This document shows positions 5,197 to 49,775 of a DNA stretch of 64,000 nt, piece by piece. Both the position numbers and the translations under genes were made by a program. The first letter of the stretch is position 1. The number at the start of each line of letters is the position of its first letter. This DNA is from Ancylobacter defluvii (GTDB lineage: Bacteria > Pseudomonadota > Alphaproteobacteria > Rhizobiales > Xanthobacteraceae): assembly GCF_018390605.1 (NCBI RefSeq), contig NZ_JAHBGD010000010.1, positions 1 to 64,000 of the forward strand, read 5' to 3'. A model generated the notes under the pieces. It was not told the origin of the DNA and did not search any database. It saw only the letters and a program-made list of their open reading frames with translations.

Positions 5197-5223
5197 GGCG
5201 GCATCGCCAGGGCAGCCGCGGGG

Positions 5224-6203: not shown

Positions 6204-6339
6204 GGCGATACGGTTAAGGCGGGGCGGCGATCCGGCACGGGATCTTGGCGCACCCGCGACGGAATGTGCTAGAAGGACCGCCCTGTTTCGTCCGACGATC
6301 GCCTATCCGTCCACCGTTCCACCACCACGAGTGAATGTC

Positions 6340-8336: not shown

Positions 8337-8405
8337 AAAGACGGGGCGTTCCGCGATATCTTAAGGAAGCATTGACGGTGGGGAAAAGCCCCCCGGGATG
8401 CCATC

Positions 8406-8861: not shown

Positions 8862-8878
8862 ACACGGGGTTTTGGCGG

Positions 8879-9361
8879 GTGCGTCTCATGATTGTCGCGG
8901 TGGGCCGGCTGAAGGCCGGGCCCGAACGCGAGTTGTGCGCCCGCTACATCGACCGCACCGTCAAGGGGGCGCGGGCGCTCGGGCTTTCCGGCCCCGACAC
9001 CGTCGAGATCGGCGAAAGCGCGGCACGCCGGCCGGACGACCGCATGGCGGAGGAAGGCGCCGCCATCCTCGCCGCCCTGCCCGAGGGCGCGGCCGTGATC
9101 GCCCTCGATCCGCGCGGCGTGCAGATTTCCTCCGAAGAGATCGCCGAGGACATGGCGGCGCGGCGCGATCGCGGCACCCGCGCGCTCGCCCTGCTGATCG
9201 GCGGCGCCGACGGGCTGAGCCCGGCGGTGCGCGCCCGCGCCGACAAGCTGCTGGCGTTTGGCCGCGCCACCTTTCCGCATCAGCTGGTTCGTGTGATGCT
9301 GGCGGAACAGCTCTACCGGGCGACCACCATTCTCGCCGGCCACCCCTATCACAAGGGATGA
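8879..9361 (+). CDS. rlmH: 23S rRNA pseudouridine-1915 N3-methyltransferase
   Basis: RlmH is a SPOUT methyltransferase that methylates pseudouridine 1915 of 23S rRNA in the assembled 70S ribosome. Visible: [20 protein letters not shown] at the N-terminus, [12 protein letters not shown] (SAM-binding knot) near residue 105 and the C-terminal [18 protein letters not shown] chose the GTG at 8879 because the resulting V-R-L-x-I-V-A-V-G aligns with the E. coli start M-K-L-x-L-V-A-V-G; the ATG three codons later (8888) is the alternative. 160 residues, family length about 155. Confidence 0.95.
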
Positions 9362-9431
9362 ACGGGGATTGCGGGGAAACGGCCGCCGCCGGTTAAGCGC
9401 GCGTTAACCAGCTTGCCGCTCTGCTCACCCG

Positions 9432-10895
9432 ATGCCCGCATCTGCTCACGACATCTCCCCGCGCCTGCGCGTCCGCCATGCCATGGCGGCGGTGCTGGCG
9501 CTCGCGCTCGCCGCCGCGACGATAACGGGGACGGCGCGCGGACAGGAGCCGGAGCAGCTTCGGTCCTTCGCCCCGCAGGAAGCCCCACAAGCTCAAGAAG
9601 CCCAGGAAGCTCAAGCGCCGGCCGCCCGGCAGCCCGATCAGCAGGCCGCCCCTGCAGCGCCCCGGAGCACGCCGGCCGCCAGCGGCACGACGGCGCGGGC
9701 GCAGCAGAAGCAGCGCATGGAGCAGCTCGAGACCGACATGCAGGGCAGCACCGCCGAGCAGGCACGGCTCGCCGGCGAGATCGAGGCCTTGAAGGGCGAC
9801 CGCGCCAAGCTCAACGCCGCGCTGATCGACACTGCCACACGAGTGCGCGAGGTCGAGGACAAGCTCGATGCCAGCGAGCAGCGCCTCCTCGCCCTCGAGC
9901 GCGAGGAGGCCGATATCCGCGAATCGCTGGATTCGCGCCAGGACGAGATGGCCGAGGTGCTGGGCGGCCTCGCCCGGCTCGGCAATCACCCGCCGCCGGC
10001 CCTGCTGGTGCGCCCGGACGACGCGCTGCAATCGGTGCGCTCGGCGATGCTGCTCGGCGCGGTGCTGCCGGAGCTCAAGGCCGAGACCGAACTGCTCGCC
10101 AGCGAGCTCGCCGCGCAGGAGCGGGTGCGCAAGGAGGTGGCCGCCGAGCGCGACGCTCTCGCAGAATTGAAGGCCACGCTGGGGGAGCAGCGCCGCCGCA
10201 CCGCCGCCCTGATCGCCGAGCGCCAGAGCTCGGTGGAGCGCAGCGAGACGGCGCTGGCGGCCGAGCGCGAGCGGGCCGCCGCCTTCGCCGCCGAGGCCAG
10301 CAATGTCCGCGACCTGCTGAAGCGCATGGAGACCGAGATCGCCGCCGCCCGCAAGGCGGCCGACGCCGCCAAGGCCTTGACGAACAAGACGAACCAGACA
10401 TCGGCGCAACGTCTGGCCGCCCTGAGCAATCCCGGACGCATGACGCCCGGCGTGGCGTTTTCCGAGGCCAGGGGCCTGCTGCCGCTGCCGGTCGGCGGCA
10501 GCGTGTTGAAGAATTTCGGTGCCGAGGACGGCTATGGCGGCGCCGAGAAGGGCATGTCCTTCGGCACCCGCCGACAGGCACAGGTGGCGGCGCCGAGCGA
10601 CGGCTGGGTGGTCTATGCCGGGCCGTTCCGCTCCTATGGACAACTATTGATCATCAATGCCGGTGGCGGCTACCATATTCTCTTGGCCGGTATGGATAAG
10701 ATAACGGTCGAGTTGGGACAGTTCGTATTGTCCGGGGAGCCGGTGGGGGTGATGGGCGACGGCCCCCAATTGGTGTCCTCGGTCGGCCTTGGAACCGCCC
10801 AACCCATTCTCTATGTCGAGTTCCGCAAGGACGGAATTTCGATTGACCCGACCCCCTGGTGGGTGACGAGCGAGAGCGAGAAGGCACGCGGATGA
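9432..10895 (+). CDS. envC: EnvC-like murein hydrolase activator (degenerate M23)
   Basis: A 487-residue exported protein: signal peptide (about residues 12-37 ending GTARG), a Pro/Gln/Ala-rich segment, long coiled coils (about 75-345) and a C-terminal LytM/M23 domain (about 370-485). The zinc ligands of active M23 peptidases are missing: KGMSFGT replaces the H-x-G-x-D motif and GGYHILLAGM replaces H-x-H, as in EnvC, which activates septal amidases rather than cutting peptidoglycan itself. It overlaps ctpA by four bases, the standard rhizobial envC-ctpA pair, suggesting coordinated septal cell wall processing and proteolysis in the periplasm. Confidence 0.9.
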   Translation: MPASAHDISPRLRVRHAMAAVLALALAAATITGTARGQEPEQLRSFAPQEAPQAQEAQEAQAPAARQPDQQAAPAAPRSTPAASGTTARAQQKQRMEQLETDMQGSTAEQARLAGEIEALKGDRAKLNAALIDTATRVREVEDKLDASEQRLLALEREEADIRESLDSRQDEMAEVLGGLARLGNHPPPALLVRPDDALQSVRSAMLLGAVLPELKAETELLASELAAQERVRKEVAAERDALAELKATLGEQRRRTAALIAERQSSVERSETALAAERERAAAFAAEASNVRDLLKRMETEIAAARKAADAAKALTNKTNQTSAQRLAALSNPGRMTPGVAFSEARGLLPLPVGGSVLKNFGAEDGYGGAEKGMSFGTRRQAQVAAPSDGWVVYAGPFRSYGQLLIINAGGGYHILLAGMDKITVELGQFVLSGEPVGVMGDGPQLVSSVGLGTAQPILYVEFRKDGISIDPTPWWVTSESEKARG

Positions 10896-12241
10896 TGCGT
10901 AGGACGTCTGTATTTCTGATGGGCGCGGCGGTCGGCGCCATCGTCGCCGTTGGCGCTGCGCAGCCCCGCCTGCTGCTCGAGCCGGCCACGGCGATGGCAG
11001 CGGCCTCCGATACCTACCGCCAGCTGAACCTGTTCGGCGACGTGTTCGAGCGCGTGCGCGCCGACTATGTCGAGAAGCCCGACGACGCCAAGCTGGTCGA
11101 GGCGGCGATCAACGGCATGCTCGCCTCGCTCGACCCGCACTCCACCTACATGGACGCCAAGGACTTCCGCGACATGCAGGTGCAGACCCGCGGCCAGTTC
11201 GGCGGGCTCGGCATCGAGGTCACCATGGAGGACGGCCTGGTGAAGGTCGTCGCCCCGATCGACGACACCCCGGCCGCCAAGGCCGGCGTCCAGGCTGGCG
11301 ACCTGATCGCCAAGCTGGACGACGAGGAAGTCAAGGGGATGACGCTCAGCCAGGCGGTGGAGAAGATGCGCGGCGCCGTCGCCACGCCGATCAAGCTCAC
11401 CGTGATCCGCAAGGGCCAGGACAAGCCGCTCGAGCTGACGCTGACCCGCGACATCATCAACATCAAGTCGGTGCGCTCGCGCGTCGAGCAGGACGACATC
11501 GCCTATATCCGCGTCACCTCCTTCAGCGAGAACACCGCCGAGGGCCTGAAGAAGGCCATGGAGGACATGACCAAGCAGATCGGCGAGGACAAGCTCAAGG
11601 GCTTCATCATCGACCTGCGCAACAATCCGGGCGGCCTGCTCGACCAGGCGATCGAGGTGTCCGACACCTTCCTCGACCGCGGCGAGATCGTCTCCACCCG
11701 CGGCCGCAACGCCGACGAGATCGAGCGCCGCAACGCGCGGCCGGGCGACCTCGCCAAGGGCAAGCCGGTGATCGTGCTGGTGAATGGCGGCTCGGCCTCG
11801 GCGTCGGAGATCGTCGCCGGCGCGCTGCAGGACCACAAGCGGGCCACCATCCTCGGCTCGCTGTCCTTCGGCAAGGGCTCGGTGCAGACGGTGATCCCGG
11901 TCTCCGGCAATGCTGCGATCAAGCTGACCACGGCGCGCTACTACACGCCGTCGGGCCGCTCGATCCAGGCCAAGGGCATCTCGCCCGACATCGAGCTGGT
12001 GCAGGACGTGCCGCAGGAAGTGAAGGAAAAGGCCGAGGCGGCCGGGGTGGAAACCACCCGCGGCGAAGCTTCGCTGAAGGGCCACCTGAAGAACGGCGAC
12101 GACGAGAAGACCGGCTCGCCGGCCTATGTGCCGCCGGATCCGAAGGACGACACCCAGCTTAAGCTGGCGATCGACCTGATGCATGGCGTGCAGAAGAACG
12201 CCGCCTACCCGGCCGACCCCAAGGCCGCAGTGCCGAACTGA
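10892..12241 (+). CDS. ctpA: S41 carboxy-terminal processing protease
   Basis: A 449-residue periplasmic serine protease. Signal/anchor segment about 3-38, PDZ domain about 95-180 (GLGIEVTMEDGLVKVVAPID, then a GVQAGDLIAKLDDEEV carboxylate loop), and the S41 catalytic domain with Ser303 in GGSASASEIVAGAL, Lys328 in LSFGKGSVQ and Gln332, the expected Ser-Lys-Gln arrangement. Such proteases trim or degrade periplasmic proteins with nonpolar C-termini and in several bacteria regulate peptidoglycan hydrolases. Translationally coupled to envC (ATGA). A hairpin terminator with a GNRA loop follows 43 bases downstream. Confidence 0.95.
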   Translation: MMRRTSVFLMGAAVGAIVAVGAAQPRLLLEPATAMAAASDTYRQLNLFGDVFERVRADYVEKPDDAKLVEAAINGMLASLDPHSTYMDAKDFRDMQVQTRGQFGGLGIEVTMEDGLVKVVAPIDDTPAAKAGVQAGDLIAKLDDEEVKGMTLSQAVEKMRGAVATPIKLTVIRKGQDKPLELTLTRDIINIKSVRSRVEQDDIAYIRVTSFSENTAEGLKKAMEDMTKQIGEDKLKGFIIDLRNNPGGLLDQAIEVSDTFLDRGEIVSTRGRNADEIERRNARPGDLAKGKPVIVLVNGGSASASEIVAGALQDHKRATILGSLSFGKGSVQTVIPVSGNAAIKLTTARYYTPSGRSIQAKGISPDIELVQDVPQEVKEKAEAAGVETTRGEASLKGHLKNGDDEKTGSPAYVPPDPKDDTQLKLAIDLMHGVQKNAAYPADPKAAVPN

Positions 12242-12283
12242 TCCGTTCCGGCCGGCAACGGGCGGACATCGCCGACAAGACCC

Positions 12284-12307
12284 GAACCCCGCCGCGAGGC
12301 GGGGTTC
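12284..12307 (+). terminator. Intrinsic terminator after envC-ctpA
   Basis: Perfect 10-base inverted repeat GAACCCCGCC / GGCGGGGTTC closed by a GCGA tetraloop, followed by CTGTTTCC. The stem is very stable, the T-run short. It lies 43 bases after the ctpA stop and should end the proA-to-ctpA transcript. Confidence 0.75.
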
Positions 12308-12522
12308 CTGTTTCCGGGCCGTACCGACCGGCGTCGCCCCCCGCATCTTCATCCCCGCATCGCGACGACGTTGCGGCGCCCGATGCCGCGATCCAGCTTT
12401 TGCCCGCCCTCCGCTGTGGCATCCGGGCAACAGGCACCAAACATCGTAGATCCACTCGCTTTTTCCGCTTCGGTATCCTGGCTTGCCGCGATGCTGCCTT
12501 GGTCGGGTTCGACAAGATTCGC

Positions 12523-12930
12523 ATGAAGATGCTTCGCCCGCCACCGGCCGCCGCGCCGGTCTTCCCGCCGAACATCCTGACCGAGGTCGAGGAGACGCTC
12601 GGACGCGATCTCGGACGCGACAGCGACCTCAATCGCGCCGCGGTGGCGATCTTCGGCCTTGCGGGACTGGCCATCGTCGCCGTCGCCTCGACCTGGCTGA
12701 TGCTGCGGGGCGAGGCACCATCGACGGCACGGTCCAGCGAGCCGCTGCTCAGCGGCAGCTTCGAGCATGAAAATGCGGCGGTGGCAGCGGATGCGCCGAT
12801 GCTGCGCCCGGCCTCGCCGATCGACGACGGGCCGAGCCCCGGCGCCTTCACCCTGATGGATGCGGCCACCGGCCTGCGCGAAGTGGTGGAAGTGCTGCCG
12901 CCGGGCGGCGCCCCCGTCGTGGCGCGCTAG
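12523..12930 (+). CDS. Truncated N-terminal part of divergent polysaccharide deacetylase
   Basis: A 135-residue protein with one transmembrane helix (about residues 44-65, FGLAGLAIVAVASTWLML) and a periplasmic tail ending FTLMDAATGLREVVEVLPPG. In Rhizobiales the gene between ctpA and rppH encodes the divergent polysaccharide deacetylase (DUF610/YibQ-like). Its N-terminus has the same layout: D-x-x-x-P-L-G-like segment, one membrane helix, then a T-I-I-D-G-x-T-G-x-R-x-E-V linker before the catalytic domain. Here the frame stops right after that linker and no catalytic domain is seen in any frame. I infer a gene remnant, though a functional small membrane protein is possible. Start at the first ATG near the conserved part; no strong ribosome site. 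Confidence 0.6.
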   Translation: MKMLRPPPAAAPVFPPNILTEVEETLGRDLGRDSDLNRAAVAIFGLAGLAIVAVASTWLMLRGEAPSTARSSEPLLSGSFEHENAAVAADAPMLRPASPIDDGPSPGAFTLMDAATGLREVVEVLPPGGAPVVAR

Positions 12931-12956
12931 ACACCTTTCGATCGCCCTGCGCCCTT

Positions 12957-14003
12957 TCAGCTGCCGGACGGCGCGAACAGATCCAGCGCCAGCGCCGCGA
13001 CGCGGGCATGGATCGCCGCGCGGTCGATGCCCGGCGCATCGATGCAGATCGCCGGCTCGGCGCGACAGGCCTCCGGCGTGCATTCGCCCAGGAACACATA
13101 GTGGCCGACATCGGCGCCGAGCGGCACCAGGCGGCTCGCCGGGATGAGGCCGTGCAGCCACCCGGCGCCGGCCTCGCCAGGCGCCTCGCGATCGGCGCCG
13201 CCGACGGTGAGCAGCACCGGCACGCCGATGGCCTCAAGGCTTTCCGGCGTGAAACCGCGCACGGTCGGCGCCGGTGCCATCACCAGCGCGGAGCAGATGC
13301 GCGGATCGCGGAAGCACAGCGACTGCCGCTGCCACGAGGCGCGGAAGGCCGGGCTTTCCGCCAGCAGCGGCACGATGCGATCGGCAAGATCGGGGAATTC
13401 GCGCGGGCCGCGTCCGAAGGGCCGGCCGGCAGCCCAGCCGAGAAAACGCGGCATCTCGGTGATCCCGCCGAGCAGCGCCAGCGCCGCATGGCCGCCGAGC
13501 GAGAAGCCGGCGACATGGAGGCGTGCGGCATCGATACCGCCGGCGAAGCGCGGATCGGCGAGAAGATGGTCGGCGAGCCGCGTGAGGTCGCCGGCACGCT
13601 CCCACCAGCACAGGAAGCCCTCCGGCCGATAGGCCTCGCGCGCGGTATTGCCGTGATGATCGACGCCGGCGACGACAAGGCCGCGCGCCGCCAGCCGGTG
13701 CGCCAGCCAGCCGAGCCCGGCGACCGTGCCGCCGGTGCCGTGCGAGAGCAGCACCAGCGGCAGCGCGCCGGCACGCCCCGCGAGCCGGGCATCGCGGCAC
13801 AGCGGCAGCGGCCGGAAAGTGGGCGCCAGGACGCTGTCGCCGGCCGCATCCGCGGCTTGCATTGTCGCCGCCTCCCACACGGCGTCGTCGGTCGGATACC
13901 AGGCCGACCAGCGGATCGGGCGCGCGCCCCCGCCCGACCAATGCGGGCGGACCGCATCGGCGAAGACGCCTTCGGTGAAGCCGACATTGCAGCCCGCCAC
14001 CAT
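12957..14003 (-). CDS. Alpha/beta hydrolase, dienelactone hydrolase-like
   Basis: A 348-residue alpha/beta hydrolase resembling the predicted dienelactone hydrolase group (COG4188). Seen: oxyanion segment PLVLLSHGTGGTVAGLGWLA (about 85-104), nucleophile elbow GFSLGG (about 165), acid candidate LLTVGGADREA and catalytic histidine in LGADVGHYVFLGEC. The N-terminal part (GFTEGVFADAVRPHWSGG) is typical of the group; no clear signal peptide, though MVAGCNVGF contains a cysteine. It is the only minus-strand gene in an otherwise plus-strand conserved block, exactly where the deacetylase catalytic domain should be, suggesting insertion and replacement. Substrate unknown. Confidence 0.85.
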   Translation of the reverse strand: MVAGCNVGFTEGVFADAVRPHWSGGGARPIRWSAWYPTDDAVWEAATMQAADAAGDSVLAPTFRPLPLCRDARLAGRAGALPLVLLSHGTGGTVAGLGWLAHRLAARGLVVAGVDHHGNTAREAYRPEGFLCWWERAGDLTRLADHLLADPRFAGGIDAARLHVAGFSLGGHAALALLGGITEMPRFLGWAAGRPFGRGPREFPDLADRIVPLLAESPAFRASWQRQSLCFRDPRICSALVMAPAPTVRGFTPESLEAIGVPVLLTVGGADREAPGEAGAGWLHGLIPASRLVPLGADVGHYVFLGECTPEACRAEPAICIDAPGIDRAAIHARVAALALDLFAPSGS

Positions 14004-14235
14004 GCCCGGCCTCCCTCCATCCGCTCCCGGCAGGGGACGCGAGCGGCGACGCGCCTGTCAATGCCGGCAGCGGCTGTGCCGCCGCCGCGCGCCTGCGGAA
14101 ACGGCCGGGCCGTGACGCGCCGGTTCCCGGCCCGGTAAGCATAAATCCATCGCGGCCTACGATCCGTCATCGCCTGCGCTTATGATCATCGGACGGCAAC
14201 GATGCCGCGTGATGTCCCGCGATCCGGCTCCTGCG

Positions 14236-14754
14236 ATGATTCCGTTCGAACAGCTTCCCTATCGCCCCTGCGTCGGTGTCGTGCTCGTCAATCGCGACGG
14301 GCTGGTGTTCGTCGGCCGCCGCGCCGACAGCGGCAACGAGCCGGTCGACGCCGGCCATGCCTGGCAGATGCCGCAGGGCGGCATCGACGAGGGCGAAAGC
14401 CCCGAGGAGGCGGCGCTGCGCGAACTCTATGAGGAGACCAGCGTCCGCTCGGTGGAGCCGCTGGCGGTGGCGCCGGACTGGTTCGCCTATGACCTGCCCG
14501 AGCCGATCGCCCGCAAGGCGTGGAAGGGGCGCTATCGCGGCCAGATGCAGAAATGGGTGGCGCTGCGCTTCACCGGCCCCGACAGCGAGATCGACGTGCT
14601 GCGTCCGGGCGGCGGCAAGCACAAGCCGGAATTCGCCGCCTGGCGCTGGGAGCGGCTCGGCAACACCCCCGGGCTGATCATCCCCTTCAAGCGTCCAGTC
14701 TATGAGCGGGTGGCCGAAACCTTCGCGCCGGTGGTGGCGCCACAGGCGCGTTGA
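14236..14754 (+). CDS. rppH: RNA pyrophosphohydrolase (Nudix)
   Basis: RppH removes pyrophosphate from the 5' triphosphate end of mRNA, starting RNase E decay. The 172-residue protein opens [20 protein letters not shown] as in rhizobial RppH, carries the Nudix box from the GG of [20 protein letters not shown] through EETSV (about residues 42-66), and has the W-K-G-R-Y-R-G-Q-x-Q-K-W segment diagnostic of RppH. In-frame ATGs 24 and 54 bases upstream are possible starts but add unconserved residues. Its usual upstream neighbours (ctpA, polysaccharide deacetylase) are displaced by the hydrolase. Confidence 0.95.
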
Positions 14755-14840
14755 AGGGCGGCAAGGATGCCGCCGGAGCGGGCGAACGGCCCGATGGCGC
14801 GCCGCATTTCCACCATCGTCTTACGTAAGGGTATTTTTGC

Positions 14841-14856
14841 GAACGAACGTTCGTTC
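14841..14856. promoter_or_regulatory. TetR operator 1
   Basis: Perfect 16-base palindrome GAACGAACGTTCGTTC upstream of the tetR-RND operon. The same core recurs 45 bases (centre to centre) downstream as operator 2. It abuts a -35-like TTGATC at 14857-14862. Paired palindromes of this kind are the usual targets of TetR/AcrR-type repressors. Confidence 0.8.
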
Positions 14857-14881
14857 TTGATCTTCTTCACCTCTCGCAGTA

Positions 14882-14905
14882 ATGAGAACGAACGTTCGCT
14901 CTCAT
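14882..14905. promoter_or_regulatory. TetR operator 2
   Basis: A 24-base palindrome from ATGAGAACGAAC to its mirror GTTCGCTCTCAT with a single mismatched pair. Its core GAACGAACGTTCG matches operator 1. It would overlap the -10/+1 region of a promoter whose -35 is TTGATC at 14857, so repressor bound here would block transcription of tetR and the efflux genes. The ATG contained at its left edge is not the tetR start. Confidence 0.8.
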
Positions 14906-14947
14906 TTTGAAGGACCCTGCGCGGGTCCTTCCCAGCTGGATCACCGC

Positions 14948-15664
14948 ATGGCCGCCGCGTCCCCCACCGCAACCAGCGCCGAGAGGCTTGCCGAGGCTGT
15001 CGTGCCCGCGGCACGCAAGCCGACGCAGCACGAGCCGACGCCGCAGAAGCCGGCGGCACGGCCGCGCAAGGCCGATCCGCGCCGGCGGGTGCTCGACGCC
15101 GCCGCCGCCTGCTTCACCCGCGCCGGCTTCCACGCCACCTCGATGCAGGAAATCTGCGCCGAGGCCGGCATGAGCCCCGGCGGGCTGTATCGCTATTTCC
15201 CGTCCAAGGACGCCATCATCCTCGCCATCGTCGAGGAAGAGCGCAGCGCCCGCATGAAGATGCTCGAGCTGCTGCACGGCGCGCCCAGCTTCGCCGCCGG
15301 CCTCACCGCCATGGGTCAGGCGCTTTTCTCCGGCGAGATGCCGATGGTGTGCGCCGATCTCGGACCGGAAATTGCCGCCGAAGCCGCGCGCAATCCCAAG
15401 CTCAAGGTCAAGTTCGACGAGGTCGACGAGGAGATGGGCAACGCCATCCGCGACGCCCTCCTCGCCGGGCAGAAGCGCGGCGAGATCGACCCGGCCATCG
15501 ACCCCGACATCGCCATGACGCTGATCGACGCCATCGGCGACGGGCTGCTGCTGCGCCGGCGCCTGCAGCCGGACCTGCCGCTCGCCGCCATGATGCCCGG
15601 CTTCGGCGATCTCATCGCCCGCATGCTCGCCCCCGTCAAACCCAGCACGGTCGACCCGACATGA
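14948..15664 (+). CDS. TetR/AcrR family regulator of the RND pump
   Basis: A 238-residue repressor. After an Ala/Pro/Thr-rich N-terminal extension (about 1-40), the TetR HTH is clear: RRRVLDAAAACFTRAGFHAT then SMQEICAEAGMSPGGLYRYF with PSKDAI. The C-terminal ligand/dimer domain runs about 95-235. The start is at MAAASPTATS because the upstream in-frame ATG falls inside operator 2. The stop overlaps the next gene by four bases (ATGA), making tetR the first gene of the efflux operon, so it very likely represses its own operon through the two palindromes. Inducer unknown. Confidence 0.92.
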   Translation: MAAASPTATSAERLAEAVVPAARKPTQHEPTPQKPAARPRKADPRRRVLDAAAACFTRAGFHATSMQEICAEAGMSPGGLYRYFPSKDAIILAIVEEERSARMKMLELLHGAPSFAAGLTAMGQALFSGEMPMVCADLGPEIAAEAARNPKLKVKFDEVDEEMGNAIRDALLAGQKRGEIDPAIDPDIAMTLIDAIGDGLLLRRRLQPDLPLAAMMPGFGDLIARMLAPVKPSTVDPT

Positions 15665-16920
15665 AGCTCGCTCCTTCCAGCCTGCGCGGAAGAGTAACCC
15701 TCGCCCTCGTCATGACCGTTCTCGTGGTGGGGGTCGGCGGCTATGCGCTGCGCGACCGCATTCCCTTCGGCCTCAGGCTCGGCGTGGCCGACACGGCGCA
15801 GGCGACAACCGCCCCCGAGCCGCAGGCGGCGCGCGGTGTCACCGTCAGCGTGGTGCCGGCCGCCCCGCGCGAGGTGATCGAGCGCCTGCCGGTCACCGGC
15901 ACGCTGGCCGCCCGCGAGGAGATCATGGTCGGGCCGGAGATCGACGGCTTTCGCATCACCGAAATCCTGGTCGAGGAGGGCGACCGCGTCGAGAAGGGCG
16001 CGGTGCTCGCCCGGCTGTCACGCGACATGATCGAGACGCTGCTCGCCCAGAACACCGCCAACGCCGCCAAGGCGCAGGCCGCCATCGCCCAGCAGAAGGC
16101 GGCGCTGGAGCAGGCCAAGGCCCAGCTCATCGAGGCGGAAGCATCGGTCGAGCGCGCGCGCACGCTGATCAAGACCGGCGCCACCTCGCAGGAAGTGCTC
16201 GACCAGCGCGAGCGCGCCGTCAGCGTCGCCAGCGCACAGGTGACCGCCGCTGAGGAAATGGTGACGGCGGCGCAGGCGGATGCCGCCCAGATCAAGGCCA
16301 ATCGCGACGAAATCGAGGTGCGGCTGGCCCGGACCGAGATCCGCGCGCCGGAAGCCGGCATCGTGTCGTCCCGCGCCGCGCGTCTGGGCGCCATCGTGCT
16401 CTCGGCTAATGCGGAGCCGCTGTTCCGCATCGTCAAGGACGGCGCCATCGACCTCGACGCCGAAGTGCCGGAATCGGCGCTGCCGCGCATCAGGCCCGGC
16501 CTGCCGGTCGAGGTGACGCCGGCGGGATTCAGCCAGCCCTTCGGCGCCAAGGTGCGCCTGGTCGGCGCCAAGGTGGATGCCAGCACCCGCCTCGCCCGCG
16601 TCGCCGTCGCCCTGCCGGACGATCCGCGGCTGCGCCCCGGCGCCTATGCCCGCGGCGACATCGAGCTCGCCCGCCATACCGGCCTCGCTTTGCCGCTCTC
16701 GGCGGTGCAGTTCGACAAGGAAGGCGCCTTCGTGCTGGTGGTCGAGAGCGACACCGTGCAGCGGCGCCCAGTGAAGACCGGGCTGATGGGCGAGGGCTTC
16801 GTCGAGATCACCGAGGGCATGAAGGACGGCGAGAGCGTGGTCGCCCGCGCCGGCGGCTTCCTGCGCGACGGCGACCGGGTGAGCCCGGTGCCGCTCGCCG
16901 ACGCGAAAGGCGGCGTGTGA
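15661..16920 (+). CDS. RND efflux periplasmic adaptor subunit
   Basis: A 419-residue membrane fusion protein of the HlyD/AcrA type. N-terminal membrane anchor (about 10-28), barrel-sandwich/lipoyl halves around GFRITEILVEEGDRVEKGAV (about 96-115) and IRAPEAGIVSSRAARLGAIV (about 230-249), a long Ala/Gln-rich helical hairpin between them (about 120-220), then beta-barrel and membrane-proximal domains. It bridges the RND permease and an outer-membrane channel. No outer-membrane factor gene follows in the operon, so a TolC-like protein encoded elsewhere is probably shared. Coupled to tetR upstream and to the permease downstream by overlapping stop/start codons. Confidence 0.93.
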   Translation: MKLAPSSLRGRVTLALVMTVLVVGVGGYALRDRIPFGLRLGVADTAQATTAPEPQAARGVTVSVVPAAPREVIERLPVTGTLAAREEIMVGPEIDGFRITEILVEEGDRVEKGAVLARLSRDMIETLLAQNTANAAKAQAAIAQQKAALEQAKAQLIEAEASVERARTLIKTGATSQEVLDQRERAVSVASAQVTAAEEMVTAAQADAAQIKANRDEIEVRLARTEIRAPEAGIVSSRAARLGAIVLSANAEPLFRIVKDGAIDLDAEVPESALPRIRPGLPVEVTPAGFSQPFGAKVRLVGAKVDASTRLARVAVALPDDPRLRPGAYARGDIELARHTGLALPLSAVQFDKEGAFVLVVESDTVQRRPVKTGLMGEGFVEITEGMKDGESVVARAGGFLRDGDRVSPVPLADAKGGV

Positions 16921-40113: not shown

Positions 40114-40302
40114 GCGGCGGTGGTCACGGGTCGTAAGGCCGGCCCGGCCATCACCATCAGAGCCGCTGCGGCGGCAATGCAACGCGATCCGTGTCGGAAA
40201 TGGCGTGAGAGCACCGACGCTGATCCTGCCGTGCTGCTCCAGGGTCTGCTGCCAGAGCGGCCAGGGAGCTTCGGTCCTTTGAGCGACGAATTCCTCTCCC
40301 CG

Positions 40303-40332
40303 TGCCGAACGCGACTGTAGCCGGGTTCGGCA
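40303..40332 (+). terminator. Possible terminator after DUF4175 gene
   Basis: Eight-base inverted repeat TGCCGAAC / GTTCGGCA with a 14-base loop, followed by TTTGG. The T-run is poor, and the distance to the stop is 190 bases, so it is only a candidate. Confidence 0.4.
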
Positions 40333-40370
40333 TTTGGCAAACCGAGACTGGATACATCCGATCCCGGTAG

Positions 40371-40450
40371 AGAGGGTTGGGGTGAGGGGATGTCGCCGCT
40401 TCGCCCCTCATCCGGCGGCTGCGCCGCCGCCTTCTTCCCAATGGGGAGAA
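40371..40450. repeat. Intergenic palindromic repeat, copy A (variant)
   Basis: GTAGAGAGGGTTGGGGTGAGG opens the element as in other copies (split: GTAGAGAGGG then TTGGGGTGAGG), then CCCTCATCC, a strong GGCGGCTGCGCCGCC hairpin and TTCTTCCCAATGGGGAGAAG. It resembles the Rhizobiales-wide family ending GGGGAGAAGG/GGGGAGAGG. It sits just after the enolase-superfamily gene stop (minus strand), so it may form the 3' end of that transcript. Confidence 0.7.
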
Positions 40451-40457
40451 GGAAATC

Positions 40458-41558
40458 TCATACCACCAGCACCGGCTCGCCCAGCGCCGGGAAGATCGGC
40501 GTGATGCCGAGGCCGGGGGAATCCGGCGCGGTCATGAAGCCGTCGACGCGCCTGGGTGCGCCTTCGGCGATGTCGACGGTGCCGTAGCTGTTGAAATCGG
40601 TGGCGGAGAAGCAGAACTCCTCCGGCGTCGAGCGGGCGAGATGGGCGATGGTCGCGGTGACGATGTCGCCGCCCCAGGTGTCCTCCATGGTCATCGGCGT
40701 GCCCGACGCCACGCAGATGTCGCGCATCAGCCGCGCTTTGGTCAGCCCGCCGACCTTGGAGATCTTCAGGTTGATGATGTCCATGGCGTCGTCGGCCAGC
40801 GCCTTCATCAGCGTGGGGACACCATCGATCACCTCGTCGAGCACGAAGGGACGCGCGGTACGGCGGCGCACCGACAGGCACTCCTCATAGGTCGGGCAGG
40901 GCTGCTCGATAGTGACGTCGAGATCGGCCACGGCGGCGGCGATGCGCGCGGCTTCCGCCCGCGTCCAGCCGGTATTGGCGTCGGCGACCAGGATGTCGCC
41001 TGGGTCGAGAATGTTGCGGGTGATCCGGATGCGGTCGATGTCCTGGTCGGCATCGCCGCCGACCTTGAGCTGAAACTTGGTGTAGCCCTGCGCCTTGTAG
41101 CCGGCGATCTTGGCGGCCATCGCCTCCGGCGCCTCCTGCGAGATGGCGCGGTAGAGCGCGATCCGCTCCTGCGCCGCGCCGCCGAGCAGCTTGTAGACCG
41201 GAAGTCCCGTGGCCTTGCCGAGGATGTCCCAGCAGGCGATGTCGATCGGCGCCTTCACATAGGGATGGCCGCGCAACACCGAATCCATATGGCGGTTCAG
41301 CACGTCGAGCTCGGTGGGGTCGAGGCCGATCAGCTTCGGGCCGATCTCGGCCAGCCCGGCGCGCACCCCGGCGGCATAGGCCGGGAGATAGGCCGAGCCG
41401 AGCGGGCAGCATTCGGCATAGCCGGTGAGGCCGGCATCGGTCTCCACCGCCACCACGGTGGAATCGAACACCTCGACGAAATTGCCGTTCGACCAGCTGT
41501 AGCGGCCTTCCTTGAGCGGCAGATCGACCTGCCAGGCCTTGATGCCGGTGATCTTCAT
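40458..41558 (-). CDS. Enolase-superfamily enzyme, probable cis-3-hydroxy-L-proline dehydratase
   Basis: A 366-residue mandelate racemase/muconate lactonizing-type enzyme. Active-site set seen: general base Lys165 in KFQLKVGG (first K of the usual KxK is Gln163), metal ligands Asp193 (VADANTGW), Glu218 (TIEQPCP) and Asp241 (VLDEVID), and Lys265 ([10 protein letters not shown]). A short version of the barrel capping lid starts the protein. Relatives act on cis-3-hydroxy-L-proline or on proline/hydroxyproline betaines; the ending SPGLGITP is shared with those groups. Being last in a four-gene operon with 4-hydroxyproline epimerase, a D-amino-acid oxidoreductase and a DHDPS-like enzyme makes a hydroxyproline substrate likely, but dehydratase versus epimerase is not decided by sequence. 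Confidence 0.85.
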
Positions 41559-41579
41559 GGGAACGCCTTTCCAAAAGGA

Positions 41580-42581
41580 TCAGGTGACGATGAAGCCGTG
41601 CGCGAAGGGGTCGCGATCGTCGATGAAGATGGTGTTGTAGCCGGTCATCCGCGCCCAGCCGCCGATGGAGGGGATGATGCCCTCCCGGTCGCCGACCGTC
41701 GCCGCCGCCTCGACCCGGCCCTTGAACAGCGAGCCGATGATGCTCTCATGCACGAAAGCGTCGCCGACCTTGAGCTGGCCCTTGCCGGCGAGCTGCGCCA
41801 TGCGGGCCGAGGTACCGGTGCCGCAGGGCGAGCGGTCAATGGCCTTGTCGCCATAGAACACCGCGTTGCGGGCATGGGCTTCGGGATGGCGCGCCTCACC
41901 GGTCCAGAGGATGTGCGACAGGCCACGAATCTCCGGCTTTTCCGGGTGGACGAACTCATATTTGGCGTTCAGCGCCGCGCGCAGGCCGGGGCTCATGCGC
42001 ACGAGGTCGCCGGCGGTGAAATCGGCCATGTCGCGATAGGCCGCCTGCGGCTCGACGATGGCGTAGAAGTTTCCGCCATAGGCGACGTCGACGGTGATCT
42101 CGCCGAGGCCGGGGCACTCGGCGGTCAGCCCGGTGGAGTGCAGGAAGCCGGGCACGTTGGTAAGCCGCACCTCCTCGACATACTGCCCCTCCTGCCGGTA
42201 CTCGGCGACGACGAGGCCGGCAGGGGTGTCGAGCCTAAGCACGCCCGGCGTCTTCGGGGTGACGAGACCGTGCTCGATGGCCATGGTCACCGTGCCGATG
42301 GTGCCGTGCCCGCACATGGCGAGGCAGCCGGAGGTCTCGATGAACAGGATGGCGACGTCGCAGTCCGGCCGGGTCGGCGGGTAGAGGATCGAGCCGGACA
42401 TCATGTCGTGGCCGCGCGGCTCGAACATCAGACCCTTGCGGATCCAGTCATACTGCTCAAGGAAATGCGCCCGTTTCTCGATCATGGTGGCGCCGACAAG
42501 GTTCGGCCCGCCGCCGGCCACCAGCCGCACCGGGTTGCCGCAGGTGTGGCCGTCTATGCAGAAAAAGCTGTGTCGCGCCAT
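41580..42581 (-). CDS. 4-hydroxyproline 2-epimerase
   Basis: A 333-residue proline racemase superfamily enzyme. Both catalytic cysteines are present: Cys90 in CLAMCGHGTIG and Cys253 in DRSPCGTGTSARMAQL. Paired Cys-Cys marks racemases/epimerases; the trans-3-hydroxyproline dehydratases have Thr in place of the second Cys, so that role is excluded. The enzyme should interconvert trans-4-hydroxy-L-proline and cis-4-hydroxy-D-proline, the first step of bacterial hydroxyproline catabolism (LhpA/HypF/4HypE). It lies 18 bases after the FAD oxidoreductase gene and 21 before the enolase-superfamily gene, one operon. Confidence 0.93.
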   Translation of the reverse strand: MARHSFFCIDGHTCGNPVRLVAGGGPNLVGATMIEKRAHFLEQYDWIRKGLMFEPRGHDMMSGSILYPPTRPDCDVAILFIETSGCLAMCGHGTIGTVTMAIEHGLVTPKTPGVLRLDTPAGLVVAEYRQEGQYVEEVRLTNVPGFLHSTGLTAECPGLGEITVDVAYGGNFYAIVEPQAAYRDMADFTAGDLVRMSPGLRAALNAKYEFVHPEKPEIRGLSHILWTGEARHPEAHARNAVFYGDKAIDRSPCGTGTSARMAQLAGKGQLKVGDAFVHESIIGSLFKGRVEAAATVGDREGIIPSIGGWARMTGYNTIFIDDRDPFAHGFIVT

Positions 42582-42599
42582 GATGATGAGCTCTGGGGA

Positions 42600-43838
42600 T
42601 TAGAAACGGTCGGCCCGCAGCGGGGCGATGTCGAGGGAAGGCGTGCGATCGGCCAGGAGATCCGCCACCAGCCGCCCGGTCGCGGCGGATTGCGTCAGGC
42701 CGAGATGGCCATGGCCGAAGGCATAGACGATATGCCGGCTCGCCCGCGAGGGGCCGATCACCGGCAGGGAATCCGGGATGGACGGGCGGAAGCCCATCCA
42801 TTGCGCACCGCCGCCGGTCCTCAGCCCCGGCAGGAAGGCCGCGGCCTTGTTCAGCATCGCCTCGGAGCGCCTGAAATTCGGTGGCAATTTCAGCCCGCCC
42901 AGTTCCACCGCGCCGCCGACGCGAATGCCGGTGGAAAGCGGGGTGACGACGAAACCGTGGCCACCGAAAGTGAGCTGGCGGCGCAGGTCGAAGGCGCCCG
43001 GCGGCAAGGTGGTGTTGTAGCCGCGCTCGGTCTCCAGCGGGATGGCATCGCCGAGCCGGGCGGTAAGCGGACGCGACCAGGCACCGCCGGCGAGAACCGC
43101 CCGCGCGGCGTCCAGCACCGTGCCGTCGCGCAGCGTCACCCGCACGCCTGGTTCGGTTGGGGAAAGCTCCGTCACCTCGCCATGGGTGATGGCGGCGCCA
43201 CGCGCCATCACCCCGTCGAACAGGGCGAGCGCGAAATGATAGGGATCGTCGACGGTCTTCCAGTGCGGTGTGAAGGTGCCGGCGACGAAGCGCGGCGACA
43301 GGCCGGGCTGCAATTCGGCCAGCCGCCCGCCGCGCACATGCTCGAATTCGATGCCGGCACCGGCGCGCTGGTCCCAGCCTTCCTGCGCGGCAGCGAGTTC
43401 CATTTCGCTTTCATAAAGCTGCAGGTTGCCGTCGGCACGCACATGGCCGCCGAGCCCTGCCTCGCGCACCATCGCCTCCATCGCCGCAGCGGCGACGCGC
43501 ATCAATTCGCCCTGGACGACGAGGCTGCGGCGATAACGATCCGGCCGGCTGGCCCGCCAGAAGCGAAACAGCCAGGGCGCGATGGAGGGTAGATAGGAAG
43601 GCGGGATGGCAAGCGGCCCGAGCGGGTCCATCAGCCATTTCGGCGCCTTGCGCAGCATGCCCGGCGAGGCGAGCGGCAAGATGTCGGTGAAGGCAAAGGC
43701 ACCGGCATTGCCGCGGCTGGCGCCATCGGCGACCGCGCCGCGCTCGACGAGGCGCACCCGGCGCCCCTCGCCCTGCAGGTGAAACGCAACGGCGAGACCG
43801 ACAATGCCGGCCCCGACGATCACCACCTCGTCGCTCAT
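42600..43838 (-). CDS. FAD-dependent D-amino-acid (D-hydroxyproline) dehydrogenase
   Basis: A 412-residue DadA/DAO-fold flavoprotein. FAD site VVIVGAGIVGLAVAFHLQGE at residues 4-23, then RVRLVERGAVADGASRGNAG, and a C-terminal GFRPSIPDSLPVIGPS with AFGHGHLGLTQSAATGRLVA closing the flavin site. In hydroxyproline clusters this position is taken by the enzyme oxidising cis-4-hydroxy-D-proline to 1-pyrroline-4-hydroxy-2-carboxylate, electrons going to the respiratory chain. Start at MSDEVVIVG; the longer frame upstream runs through a repeat. Substrate assigned by context. Confidence 0.9.
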   Translation of the reverse strand: MSDEVVIVGAGIVGLAVAFHLQGEGRRVRLVERGAVADGASRGNAGAFAFTDILPLASPGMLRKAPKWLMDPLGPLAIPPSYLPSIAPWLFRFWRASRPDRYRRSLVVQGELMRVAAAAMEAMVREAGLGGHVRADGNLQLYESEMELAAAQEGWDQRAGAGIEFEHVRGGRLAELQPGLSPRFVAGTFTPHWKTVDDPYHFALALFDGVMARGAAITHGEVTELSPTEPGVRVTLRDGTVLDAARAVLAGGAWSRPLTARLGDAIPLETERGYNTTLPPGAFDLRRQLTFGGHGFVVTPLSTGIRVGGAVELGGLKLPPNFRRSEAMLNKAAAFLPGLRTGGGAQWMGFRPSIPDSLPVIGPSRASRHIVYAFGHGHLGLTQSAATGRLVADLLADRTPSLDIAPLRADRF

Positions 43839-43910
43839 GATGCCTGTTTTCTCATGGTCTCTCCCGGTCGAAGCCTCGCTTCGATGGGAGACACGTCCTG
43901 CCTGCTTTCT

Positions 43911-44024
43911 TCTCCTCTCGCCATTTGGGAGGGGAGGCCCGCGAAGCGGGTCGGTGAGGGGCAACGACATCGGGATGCGTCGAAGCCCCCTCACTCCATC
44001 CCTCTCCCCGACGGGGAGAGGGAG
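43911..44024. repeat. Intergenic palindromic repeat, copy B
   Basis: Full-length copy between the DHDPS-like gene and the flavoprotein gene: CTCCTCTCGCCATTTGGGAG hairpin, GGCCCGCGAAGCGGGTCGG hairpin, TGAGGGG, about 25 variable bases, CCCCCTCACTCCATCC and CCTCTCCCCGACGGGGAGAG hairpin. It would fold into three stems in the intercistronic mRNA and could set differential stability of the two halves of the operon. A further hairpin lies between it and the next gene (43861-43890, TCGAAGC/GCTTCGA). Confidence 0.8.
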
Positions 44025-44048
44025 CCGGGTCGCTCCGCCTGACGAGCC

Positions 44049-44945
44049 TCACGCCGCCTTGGCGAGCAGCGGGCGGTTGGCCAGCGCCTCGGCGACCAGC
44101 TTTTCGACCTCGGCGCGGCGAGCGCCTTCCAGCGGCAGGCGCGGCGCGCGCACCATCTCGGTGGTGCCGGTGACCAGCGCCTCGACCAGCTTCAGGTTCT
44201 GCACCAGATAGGTCGAGACATCGAGGTCGAGCAACGGCCGGAACCAGCGATAGAGGGCGAGCGCCTCGTCATAGCGCTTGGCCTTCATCAGCCGGTAGAT
44301 GGCGACGGTCTCCTCCGGGAAGGCGACCACCAGACCGGCCACCCAACCCACGGCGCCGGCGGCCAGCGCCTCGAAGGCGAGGTTGTCGACGCCGGTGAAC
44401 ACGTCGTAGCGGTCGCCGAAGCGGTTGATGATCTCGGTAGTGCGGCGGATGTCGTCGGACGACTCCTTGATCGCCACGAAGCGCTTGTCGGCGGCGAGTT
44501 CGTCCATGATCTCCAGCGTCACGTCGACCCGGTAGGCGATGCGATTGGAATAGATCATCACCGGCAGGTCGGCCGCCGCCGCGATGGTGGAGAGCGTGGC
44601 CACCGTTTCCTTCGGATTGGTGTGGTAGACGAGGCTCGGCACGATCATCAGCCCGGTGGCGCCGGCCTTGGCGGCGCGCTCGGCGAGGCTGGCGCAGTCA
44701 CGGGTGGCGGCGTCGGCGATGGTCATCAGGACGGGACGGCCGCCGGCGACGCTCTTGGCCACATGCAGCACGTCGAGCCGCTCGTCATGCGAGAGCATCG
44801 GGCCCTCGCCGAGCGAGCCGTTGACGATGATTCCGTCGACGCCGGCCGAAATCTGGTAGGCGAAGCAGCGCTCCATCTCCTTGATGTCGAGCGTGTCGTT
44901 CGGCGTGAACTTGGCGGTAACGGCGGGGAGGATGCCAGACCACAT
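44049..44945 (-). CDS. DHDPS-family enzyme, probable pyrroline-hydroxycarboxylate deaminase
   Basis: A 298-residue dihydrodipicolinate synthase/N-acetylneuraminate lyase barrel. Schiff-base Lys160 in RFVAIKESSDD, tyrosine in PVMIYSNRIAYRVD, and GSLGEGPMLSHDER replacing the G-T-T-G-E pyruvate motif of true DapA, which argues against a lysine role. In hydroxyproline clusters the member converts 1-pyrroline-4-hydroxy-2-carboxylate to 2-oxoglutarate semialdehyde with loss of ammonia. It is first in the minus-strand operon and starts 359 bases from the divergent GntR regulator. The dehydrogenase that would finish the pathway to 2-oxoglutarate is not in this window next to it. Confidence 0.88.
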   Translation of the reverse strand: MWSGILPAVTAKFTPNDTLDIKEMERCFAYQISAGVDGIIVNGSLGEGPMLSHDERLDVLHVAKSVAGGRPVLMTIADAATRDCASLAERAAKAGATGLMIVPSLVYHTNPKETVATLSTIAAAADLPVMIYSNRIAYRVDVTLEIMDELAADKRFVAIKESSDDIRRTTEIINRFGDRYDVFTGVDNLAFEALAAGAVGWVAGLVVAFPEETVAIYRLMKAKRYDEALALYRWFRPLLDLDVSTYLVQNLKLVEALVTGTTEMVRAPRLPLEGARRAEVEKLVAEALANRPLLAKAA

Positions 44946-45304
44946 GGCGGTGAAACTCCTGTCGGACGTGAAATTCAAAGGACGGATTCGAGGAAGACCG
45001 TGGTTTCCGGCTGTCGCGGAGGGCCGATCGTCAGGCCGTTGGCCCGATCGCGTGGGTCTTCCCCAGTGAAACATGCGGCCCGAGCGGAGACTTCGCGGGG
45101 CGCGGGCACGGGCGATACGGATCATCGACACCCCCTCGCCCACAGCAAGAGCTTCCAATTTTTGGATCCAAGATGCAATATCCTTTTCGTCGCCACGCTG
45201 CGGGATTATTGGGCAGCTCGAGGGACGGCAGCCGCCGGCGCGGATTGCGGGTCCATGCGGCAGCGGGTAGAGCGAATGGGCGGATGGGTGGGAGGCGGCA
45301 GCTG
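44946..45304. other. Divergent regulatory region, hydroxyproline operon / GntR
   Basis: 359 bases between the DHDPS-like gene and the GntR gene. Contains the TTGGATCCAA palindrome, overlapping CCAA-TTT-TTGG, and an AT-rich patch around 45150-45185 in otherwise GC-rich DNA. A longer in-frame extension of gntR through this region is rejected because the sequence has no domain character and a good ribosome site supports the later GTG. Confidence 0.6.
45162..45171. promoter_or_regulatory. Candidate GntR operator TTGGATCCAA
   Basis: A perfect 10-base palindrome within the AT-rich part of the divergent region. Short palindromes of the TTGnnnnCAA kind are typical operators of FCD-type GntR regulators. 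It is 217 bases from the DHDPS-like ATG and 134 from the gntR GTG, so it could act on both directions. Assignment is by position only. Confidence 0.5.
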
Positions 45305-45988
45305 GTGAAAGTGAAGGCAACCGACATCGCGCAGATGCCATCGCCTGCCGACGTGATCTTCGATGCGCTGCGCGAGGCGATCGCCAAGGGCGATATCTCC
45401 GAAGGCCAGGTGCTGCGCCAGGATCACATCGCCCGCATGTTCAACATCAGCCGCATACCTGTGCGGGAAGCTCTCACGCGCCTCGAGGAACAAGGCCTGG
45501 TCTCCACCCAGCGTTATCGCGGCGCGGTGGTGACCACGCTGTCGATCGCGGAGATCCGCGAGGTGTTCGAGTTCCGCGCCCTGCTGGAACCGGAGATCCT
45601 GCGCTATTCCATCGAACGCATGTCCCCGGAAGCGCTTGAGCACGCCAAGGAATTCGCCCACGCCTTCGCCACCGAGCCGGAATCTTCGCGCTGGGGCGAT
45701 CTCAACCGGCGCTTCCACTACAGTCTCTACGAGCCGGCCGGGCGGCCCTATTATCTGCAGACCATCTCGACCGCGCTCGACCGCGTCGACCGCTATCTGC
45801 GCGCCCAGCTGGTGCTGACCGACGGCATGGCGCGGGCGCGGCGCGAGCATCAGGGCATTCTCGACGCCTGCATCGCCGGCGATTCCGAGATGGCGGTCCG
45901 GCTCACCCGCGAGCATATTCTGGGCGCCGCCGATTCGCTGGTCGCCTTCCTGATCCGAACCCGCGCGCAGGAGAATTCAGAGCGATGA
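45305..45988 (+). CDS. GntR family regulator (FCD) of the hydroxyproline locus
   Basis: A 227-residue regulator: winged helix at about 10-75 (DVIFDALREAIAKGDISEGQ, DHIARMFNISRIPVREALTR) and an FCD ligand-binding domain (about 85-220) with FEFRALLEPEILRYS, NRRFHYSLYEPAG and EHQGILDACIAGD, the metal-site histidines included. GTG start chosen for the GGAGG site nine bases upstream. Divergent from the hydroxyproline operon and therefore its probable regulator; coupled by a four-base overlap to galM downstream, an unusual partner. Inducer likely a hydroxyproline pathway compound, by context. Confidence 0.9.
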   Translation: MKVKATDIAQMPSPADVIFDALREAIAKGDISEGQVLRQDHIARMFNISRIPVREALTRLEEQGLVSTQRYRGAVVTTLSIAEIREVFEFRALLEPEILRYSIERMSPEALEHAKEFAHAFATEPESSRWGDLNRRFHYSLYEPAGRPYYLQTISTALDRVDRYLRAQLVLTDGMARARREHQGILDACIAGDSEMAVRLTREHILGAADSLVAFLIRTRAQENSER

Positions 45989-46998
45989 CGCTTTCCGACA
46001 ACGTCACCCGCATCGGCAGCGTCGATGGCGATGAACTCTACGAGGTCGCCCTCACCGCCGCCTCCGGCGCCAAAGCGCGGGTGCTGAGCTGGGGAGCGAC
46101 GCTGCGCGAATTGCGGGTGCCGGGGCCGGACGGCTCGCTGCATCCCGGCGTGCTCGGCTTTACCGAGCTCGACCGCTATCTCGCCAACCCCTCCTATCTC
46201 GGCGCCACCTGCGGCCGGGTCGCCAACCGCATCGGCGGCGGGCGCTTCACCGTGGAGGACCGGAGCTACGAACTCGCCCGCAACGAGCGCGGCGTCACCC
46301 ATCTGCATGGCGGCACCCGCGGCTTCTCGCACCGGCCGTGGAAGATCGCGACGGTGGCAGCGGACGCCGTGACCTTCACTCGCACAGCGCCGGACGGTGA
46401 GGAAGGCTATCCGGGAACGCTTGATCTTTCATGCACTTACCGGCTTCTGCCGCCGGGCGTGCTGCGGGTGGAGATGGAAGCGCGCACCGATGCGACAACG
46501 CCGGTGAACCTCGCCCACCACTCCTATTTCACCCTCGATCCCGGCCGCTCCTCGCATGAGCTCACGGTGGAGATCGCCTCCAGCCGCTACACGCCGCTCG
46601 ATGCGCTGAAGGTGCCGACCGGCGAAATCGCTCCCGTCGAGGGCACCGGCTACGACCTGCGCACTCCGCGCCGGCTCGGTGACAGCGGCATCACCTACGA
46701 CATTAATTTCGCGCTCGATCAACCACTTGGCGAGCTGCGCTTCGCTGCCCGCGTGGCGAGCCCGCAGAGCGGCCGTACGCTGGAGGTTTGGACCACCGAG
46801 CCGGGCCTGCAGCTCTACGACGCCTCGATGCTGGCGGTGACCGACAAGGGCCTCGACGGCCTAACCCATGGAAAACACGCTGGAATCTGTCTTGAGGCGC
46901 AGAATTTCCCCGACGCGGTGAACCATCCGGGCTTCCCTTCTCCCTGGCTGAAGCCGGGCGAGCTGTACCGCCAGGTCACCGAATATCGCTTCAGCTGA
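45985..46998 (+). CDS. galM: Aldose 1-epimerase family protein
   Basis: A 337-residue galactose mutarotase-like protein. Seen: YLGATCGRVANRIGGGRFTV, RGVTHLHGGTRGFSHRPW with the substrate arginine and histidine, VNLAHHSYFTL with the catalytic His, and GICLEAQNFPDAVNHPGFPS with the catalytic Glu. It interconverts alpha and beta anomers of hexoses. The ATG overlaps the gntR stop (ATGA) and there is an AGGAGA site. Why a mutarotase should be coupled to a hydroxyproline-locus regulator is unclear: an unrelated sugar role or a cyclic hemiaminal/hemiacetal substrate are both guesses. Its last 8 bases overlap the convergent LysR gene. Confidence 0.92.
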   Translation: MTLSDNVTRIGSVDGDELYEVALTAASGAKARVLSWGATLRELRVPGPDGSLHPGVLGFTELDRYLANPSYLGATCGRVANRIGGGRFTVEDRSYELARNERGVTHLHGGTRGFSHRPWKIATVAADAVTFTRTAPDGEEGYPGTLDLSCTYRLLPPGVLRVEMEARTDATTPVNLAHHSYFTLDPGRSSHELTVEIASSRYTPLDALKVPTGEIAPVEGTGYDLRTPRRLGDSGITYDINFALDQPLGELRFAARVASPQSGRTLEVWTTEPGLQLYDASMLAVTDKGLDGLTHGKHAGICLEAQNFPDAVNHPGFPSPWLKPGELYRQVTEYRFS

Positions 46999-48001: not shown

Positions 48002-49495
<1,494 letters not shown>

Positions 49496-49679: not shown

Positions 49680-49775
49680 CCATCCCCGAGCCTCCCTCTC
49701 CCCGTCGGGGAGAGGGCTGGGGTGAGGGGTCTTCTGCGCCTTCCCATGACGTCTCCCCTCAACCGGCCCGCGGAG
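49680..49775. repeat. Intergenic palindromic repeat, copy C (inverted)
   Basis: Copy in the opposite orientation to B and E: CCTCTCCCCGTCGGGGAGAG hairpin, GGCTGGGGTGAGGGG, variable bases, CTCCCCTCAACCGGCCCGCG. Lies in the 320-base gap between mmsA and the small membrane protein gene; apart from this repeat and the mmsA terminator I see nothing else in that gap. Confidence 0.75.

Follow-up and report, generated by a model that had tools for sequence, protein, structure and literature searches.

Does the hydroxyproline gene cluster at positions 40458-46998 of a 64,000-nucleotide stretch of Ancylobacter defluvii DNA (hereafter the window; contig NZ_JAHBGD010000010.1) encode a pathway of its own, or a version of one already known? 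Hydroxyproline is an amino acid found in collagen and in the walls of plants and algae. The initial annotation had proposed that the cluster represents an undescribed variant pathway. That proposal did not hold: the biochemistry of LhpJ, the cis-3-hydroxyproline dehydratase, is published, and the same gene has been reported in a congeneric species (PMC5144071). The locus is very probably an LhpJ-type hydroxyproline operon of the alphaproteobacterial kind, in reduced form. The pathway itself is already described, and what is new is local, namely the loss of a dehydratase gene.

We compared the cluster with the best 80 of at least 547 LhpJ relatives, the fetched loci totalling 1,416,442 bases. 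Among the matches listed, the closest named LhpJ was that of Ancylobacter sonchi (94%), which places the genome in the Ancylobacter group. Two loci recur below: L001, the A. sonchi locus, and L131, from genome G022, which is nearer to the window than L001; the window's own genome is G000. All six annotated genes were confirmed as open frames, four on the minus strand and a divergent GntR-galM pair. The features of the locus are as follows.

40246-40302, minus strand: stretch bearing the deletion scar; 40246-40265 resembles L131 6493-6512 (95% of 20) and 40264-40302 resembles L131 7525-7564 (82.5%, 40 columns)
40458-41558, minus strand: LhpJ, MR/MLE-type cis-3-hydroxyproline dehydratase; 366 amino acids; NF043002, 740 bits against a cut-off of 500
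41580-42581, minus strand: 4-hydroxyproline 2-epimerase (4HypE), proline racemase family; 333 amino acids; NF010578, 609 against 376; Cys90/Cys253
42600-43838, minus strand: D-amino-acid dehydrogenase-type FAD flavoprotein, presumed cis-4-hydroxy-D-proline dehydrogenase; 412 amino acids; Pfam DAO, 201 bits
44049-44945, minus strand: DHDPS-family protein, probable deaminase by superfamily and position; 298 amino acids; Pfam DHDPS, 156 bits
45162-45171, no strand: palindrome TTGGATCCAA, lying where the two units diverge and likely the operator of GntR; conserved in relatives' spacers
45305-45988, plus strand: GntR-FCD regulator, HypR-like in its presumed role; Pfam GntR 57 bits, FCD 91 bits
45985-46998, plus strand: aldose 1-epimerase, galM type, apparent bystander; Pfam Aldose_epim, 259 bits

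The identity of the MR/MLE enzyme carries most of the argument. It had been expected to add either cis-3-hydroxyproline or a betaine as substrate, and the former was borne out. The protein matched the cis-3-hydroxyproline dehydratase equivalog NF043002 over its full length, whereas the next of 17 NCBIfam matches reached 105 bits against a cut-off of 335. Its best PDB match was 4mgg (E 1.1e-188, 630 bits; second-best 339 bits), which we take to be the enzyme that Zhang 2015 described from Labrenzia aggregata. By these matches the window enzyme is LhpJ, the known cis-3-hydroxyproline dehydratase. The Q-L-K motif, noted in place of K-x-K, was indeed present (Q163-L164-K165); its supposed distinctiveness was lost on comparison. 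Q163-L164, K165, K265, D193, E218 and D241 were identical in 80/80 relatives examined, so Q-L-K is a family trait, ordinary for LhpJ, and was ruled out as a mark of new chemistry. The roles of the individual residues among K165, K265, D193, E218 and D241 we presume from the superfamily. LhpJ is described as using two lysines and as binding a Mg ion through two Asp and one Glu (PMC5144071).

A separate observation concerns 13 LhpJ relatives at 65-67% identity (L068-L080), from Planctomycetota, Verrucomicrobia, Akkermansiaceae, Actinomycetota and Blastocatellia bins. In 13/13, no match to a queried hydroxyproline gene was seen in the stretch covered (several of these loci being short), so that LhpJ appeared there without its usual partners.

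The reading of the locus as one for the trans-4-hydroxyproline route was upheld. This route, comprising an epimerase, an oxidase, a deaminase and a semialdehyde dehydrogenase, is set out in an eLife paper (PMC4113996). For 4HypE, both the NF010578 equivalog score and the Cys90/Cys253 pair were found. The FAD oxidoreductase belongs to Pfam DAO; it fell below every NCBIfam cut-off shown and had no PDB match at E 1e-20. The DHDPS-type protein had a best PDB match of 106 bits and no equivalog model over its cut-off. Transcription on the minus strand runs from the DHDPS-family gene through the FAD oxidoreductase and epimerase genes to the MR/MLE gene. This order was kept in 11/11 Ancylobacter-group loci (L001-L011), with the oxidase lying between deaminase and epimerase in each. 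The six genes are under purifying selection: dN/dS against the A. sonchi orthologues, a comparison that spans time before and after the dehydratase deletion described below, ranged from 0.07 to 0.18 (deaminase 0.094, oxidase 0.132, LhpJ 0.128, 4HypE 0.106, GntR 0.074, galM 0.181). G+C content at the cluster was 67-68% compared to 68-71% in the window's other 4-kb steps.

The gene that is missing encodes trans-3-hydroxyproline dehydratase, represented in L001 by a copy scoring 649 against 550 for NF047722. Across 30 genomes of the genus, LhpJ (at least 87% identity) occurred in 23 and the trans-3 dehydratase (at least 82%) in 25. The two occurred together in 22 genomes, that is, in 22 of the 23 LhpJ bearers; the window genome alone had LhpJ without the trans-3 dehydratase. 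Three genomes (G005, G008, G011) had the dehydratase without LhpJ and four (G001, G003, G016, G028) had neither. The A. sonchi dehydratase (L001) was 100% identical to that of G017, which was counted in the window's genus. The window spacer at 40114-40457 aligned co-linearly with three parts of the G022 locus (L131), namely the spacer between LhpJ and the dehydratase, the leader of the dehydratase gene and the final ~20 bases of that gene; beside the scar, 40370-40455 matched L131 7570-7656. From this co-linearity we infer that ~1.0 kb was deleted, removing the trans-3 dehydratase and leaving both of its ends behind.

Other partners are likewise not local. The cluster has no transporter, and no protein in it passed the cut-off of any model for 2-oxoglutarate semialdehyde dehydrogenase (KGSADH); both absences had been noted initially and both stood. 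Most relatives carry an amino-acid ABC transporter and an MLD2 reductase, which are absent from the window. Genes of the MLD2 family (at least 78% identical to that of L010) occurred in 18/30 genomes, all among the 23 LhpJ bearers and in 0/7 genomes lacking LhpJ. Their distance from LhpJ was within 10 kb in 13 of the 18 and greater in four, with one on another contig. LhpJ genomes without it were G000, G007, G017, G019 and G022, and the best match to the MLD2 reductase in the window genome was only 37%. An OCD-family gene elsewhere in that genome (G000:C17:717046) passed NF004793, the model for pyrroline-2-carboxylate (Pyr2C)/piperideine-2-carboxylate reductase, at 404 against 322, and because of this gene the cis-3 route can be complete in the genome, though its predicted parts are scattered. 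Close copies of the OCD gene (at least 86%) were found in 4/30 genomes (G000, G011, G017, G022), and most others hold one at 48-62%. ProC was considered as a stand-in Pyr2C reductase and dropped, the main text of PMC12899673 containing none of the terms looked for.

Near the cluster lies an aldehyde dehydrogenase (48002-49495), which was not favoured as KGSADH as it is a strong MMSDH (696 bits against 448.5, compared to 357 against 770 for the KGSADH model NF042993). An MMSDH gene was also seen near the hydroxyproline cluster in L001, L009 and L131. The A. sonchi copy (L001 1974-3467) was called as two frames and the window copy is whole, a difference that could be a sequencing error.

The window genome also holds a second hydroxyproline-like locus (L098, G000:C17:206000-225999, 757-15696). 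It encodes a branched-chain-type ABC transporter, a GntR, a cupin, an SDR, an aspartate-dehydrogenase-like protein, a DAAO-type protein, a NIPSNAP protein, a DHDPS-type protein and a hydrolase, together with a 4-hydroxyproline epimerase (580 against 376 bits) and a Ser/Cys proline-racemase paralogue. A 599-amino-acid protein, in which only a B12-binding domain (461-544) was recognised, is odd in such a setting.

How the cluster is regulated is suggested by the ten-base palindrome TTGGATCCAA, whose sole copy in the window lies at 45162-45171. Across the 80 loci it occurred 18 times, compared to 0.59 expected from base composition. The GntR gene is divergent from the operon in the window and in relatives, and 17/24 GntR-divergent spacers (taken up to the first transport or enzyme gene) held an exact copy, 21/24 allowing at most one mismatch; the spacer of L003 carries the palindrome. 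The eighteenth copy, in L034, stands directly before a transporter gene. In Sinorhizobium (PMC5343134) and Streptomyces (PMC6608401) the GntR-type repressor of hydroxyproline genes is called HypR, the Streptomyces protein being described with a different site. As expected of a HypR-type system, the window has a GntR-FCD protein, and a conserved site lies in the promoter region that the two units share; the palindrome is likely the operator of this regulator. A hunt with the palindrome for unlinked pathway genes found no exact copy in 34 loci of the window genome (332,297 bases counting overlaps) and a single one-mismatch copy, in L139. Spacers of the window (40370-40455, 43988-44027, 49688-49771) and of its relatives also share recurrent short palindromes whose cores are CTTCTCCCC/GGGGAGAAG-like.

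The galM gene, the reading frame of which shares 4 bases with that of GntR, had been described as lacking an evident place in the pathway, and we agree. Among the 80 fetched loci L001 alone had a galM match; apart from that locus, galM was found next to GntR in the window and in L131 only, and the gene behind GntR differed in L002, L004, L009 and L010. This rarity and these differing neighbours ruled out galM as a pathway member; judged by its distribution, it is a lineage-specific bystander, which the candidate operator would also control in this lineage.

Taken together, gene identities (two at equivalog level, the rest at family level), the conserved palindrome and the deletion are established from sequence, and for the reactions, repression and induction we infer from the published enzymes. 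In the proposed scheme, 4HypE would convert trans-4-hydroxy-L-proline to cis-4-hydroxy-D-proline, the flavoprotein would oxidise this to the pyrroline, and the DHDPS-type enzyme would deaminate the pyrroline to 2-oxoglutarate semialdehyde, which an unlinked aldehyde dehydrogenase would take to 2-oxoglutarate. LhpJ would dehydrate cis-3-hydroxy-L-proline to Pyr2C, for reduction to L-proline by the unlinked OCD-family enzyme, and GntR, acting at the palindrome (45162-45171), would control the two divergent units.

Several observations weigh against this scheme. Neither the oxidase nor the DHDPS-type protein passes the cut-off of an equivalog model, so for two of the four steps the assignment depends on family and context. 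No KGSADH over the NF042993 cut-off was found in the genome (17 matches, best 401 against 770), a weak sign of absence given that this model also misses the dehydrogenase inside the L066 cluster (511 against 770); that L066 enzyme itself had no relative above 40% in the window genome. The relatives' transporter had no close match in the genome, its binding protein reaching 33% at best. Regarding the operator, 11/17 exact-palindrome spacers came from the Ancylobacter group (those outside it being L013, L016, L038, L042, L043 and L066), and the palindrome, even allowing one mismatch, was missing from L015, L026 and L032, where GntR is likewise divergent. Regarding the deletion, the scar test against L001 was not significant (10/300 shuffles scored equally high), and the 20-base 3' piece is short (E 0.003 on its own), leaving only the co-linearity with G022 (L131) convincing. 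Finally, the genus counts for LhpJ and the dehydratase come from related genomes rather than independent events, and the MLD2 and OCD patterns similarly track kinship.

The boldest alternative concerns the substrate. The operon might serve also, or mainly, 3,4-dihydroxyprolines, LhpJ removing the 3-hydroxyl of a 2,3-cis-3,4-dihydroxy-L-proline to give pyrroline-4-hydroxy-2-carboxylate directly and the deaminase acting next, with no need of a reductase, epimerase or oxidase; we consider this unlikely. The case for it came from 51 loci of at least 20 kb, eight of which had, by score thresholds, neither 4HypE nor a window-type oxidase although a DHDPS-type gene lay no more than 10 kb from LhpJ (L017 and L049, with the oxidase and no close 4HypE, were labelled full). 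Three of the eight (L026, L032, L037) were set aside because a racemase-family paralogue and a further DAAO-type protein are encoded there. Within the window-type deaminase group the pattern was seen in L016, L038, L042, L043 and L013, the last of these a shorter locus. These five have GntR and, in a row, the deaminase, LhpJ and the trans-3 dehydratase, with the exact palindrome in front in 5/5 and no 4HypE or window-type oxidase in the stretch examined. A dihydroxyproline substrate is suggested because the deaminase would otherwise be without an evident substrate in these loci. They fall at three places of the deaminase tree, in which the window-type group (22 rows) has support of 99/99, but not all forks separating the three places are strongly supported and some branches are very long, that of L037 above all. 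The missing genes may also be unlinked in those five genomes. L013 covers just 3.4 kb past LhpJ, L038, L042 and L043 have another DAAO-type flavoprotein nearby on the opposite strand, and L016 has an MLD2 reductase. The dihydroxyproline of diatom walls is the 2,3-cis-3,4-trans form. That diatom walls contain dihydroxyproline is documented (PMC4557024), and the AcnX-type LhpI is reported to act on 2,3-cis-3,4-cis-3,4-dihydroxy-L-proline, giving a product taken as the 4S-hydroxy pyrroline; this activity is, however, ~300-fold below that on cis-3-hydroxyproline, and belongs to LhpI, not LhpJ (PMC5144071). No bacterial route for dihydroxyproline catabolism was named in the titles or abstract openings of the literature searched, which covers few subscription papers. 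The window itself, moreover, retains 4HypE and the oxidase. It is similarly doubtful that the deaminase-dehydratase core forms a catabolic route for 3,4-dihydroxyprolines, LhpJ taking the 2,3-cis and the trans-3 dehydratase the 2,3-trans substrates, both yielding pyrroline-4-hydroxy-2-carboxylate and then 2-oxoglutarate semialdehyde. If it did, only the 2,3-cis branch would survive in the window, merging into the trans-4-hydroxyproline route.

Two further proposals concern LhpJ itself. With the partner dehydratase and linked reductase gone, the chief activity of LhpJ in the window might be 2-epimerisation, supplying the adjacent D-amino-acid oxidase with trans-3-hydroxy-D-proline. No enzyme is known to us that would act further on the 3-hydroxy pyrroline. 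LhpJ does epimerise cis-3-hydroxy-L-proline besides dehydrating it (PMC5144071), and in the window it is accompanied only by 4HypE, the oxidase and the deaminase; yet dehydration is described as irreversible (PMC5144071) and so should win, and a Pyr2C reductase exists elsewhere in the genome, making this proposal highly improbable. A proline betaine or acid sugar as the substrate has barely any claim at all: betaine epimerases do belong to the same superfamily (PMC5144071), but the equivalog score and the ranking of structures given above, the second of which is far weaker, ruled it out. The LhpJ-type hydroxyproline operon is retained as the best explanation. The locus is thereby identified with a known pathway, and Q-L-K and galM drop out as false leads. 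What stays of use is a clear case of genes being lost stepwise from a catabolic operon, together with a highly specific candidate for the GntR operator and a testable hint of 3,4-dihydroxyproline as a substrate of the core enzymes.

Among known systems, the Sinorhizobium meliloti hyp locus likewise has genes for an epimerase, an oxidase and a deaminase together with one for a GntR-family regulator (PMC5343134); in contrast, the window lacks a local KGSADH and transporter and has LhpJ in addition. The AcnX-type LhpI catalyses the same reaction as LhpJ (PMC5144071) but comes from an unrelated superfamily, the window enzyme being of the enolase superfamily. The closest likeness, going by published description, is to the clusters of Labrenzia aggregata IAM 12614, the LhpJ enzyme of which is also cited in a review (PMC8142540), and Starkeya novella DSM 506. 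Both have LhpJ inside a hydroxyproline cluster and the same kinds of enzyme for trans-4- and cis-3-hydroxyproline. In S. novella, transcription of LhpJ is reported to be raised by cis-3- and trans-4-hydroxyproline (PMC5144071, citing Zhang 2015), and this species, according to a taxonomy look-up, is now Ancylobacter novellus, making it congeneric with the window.

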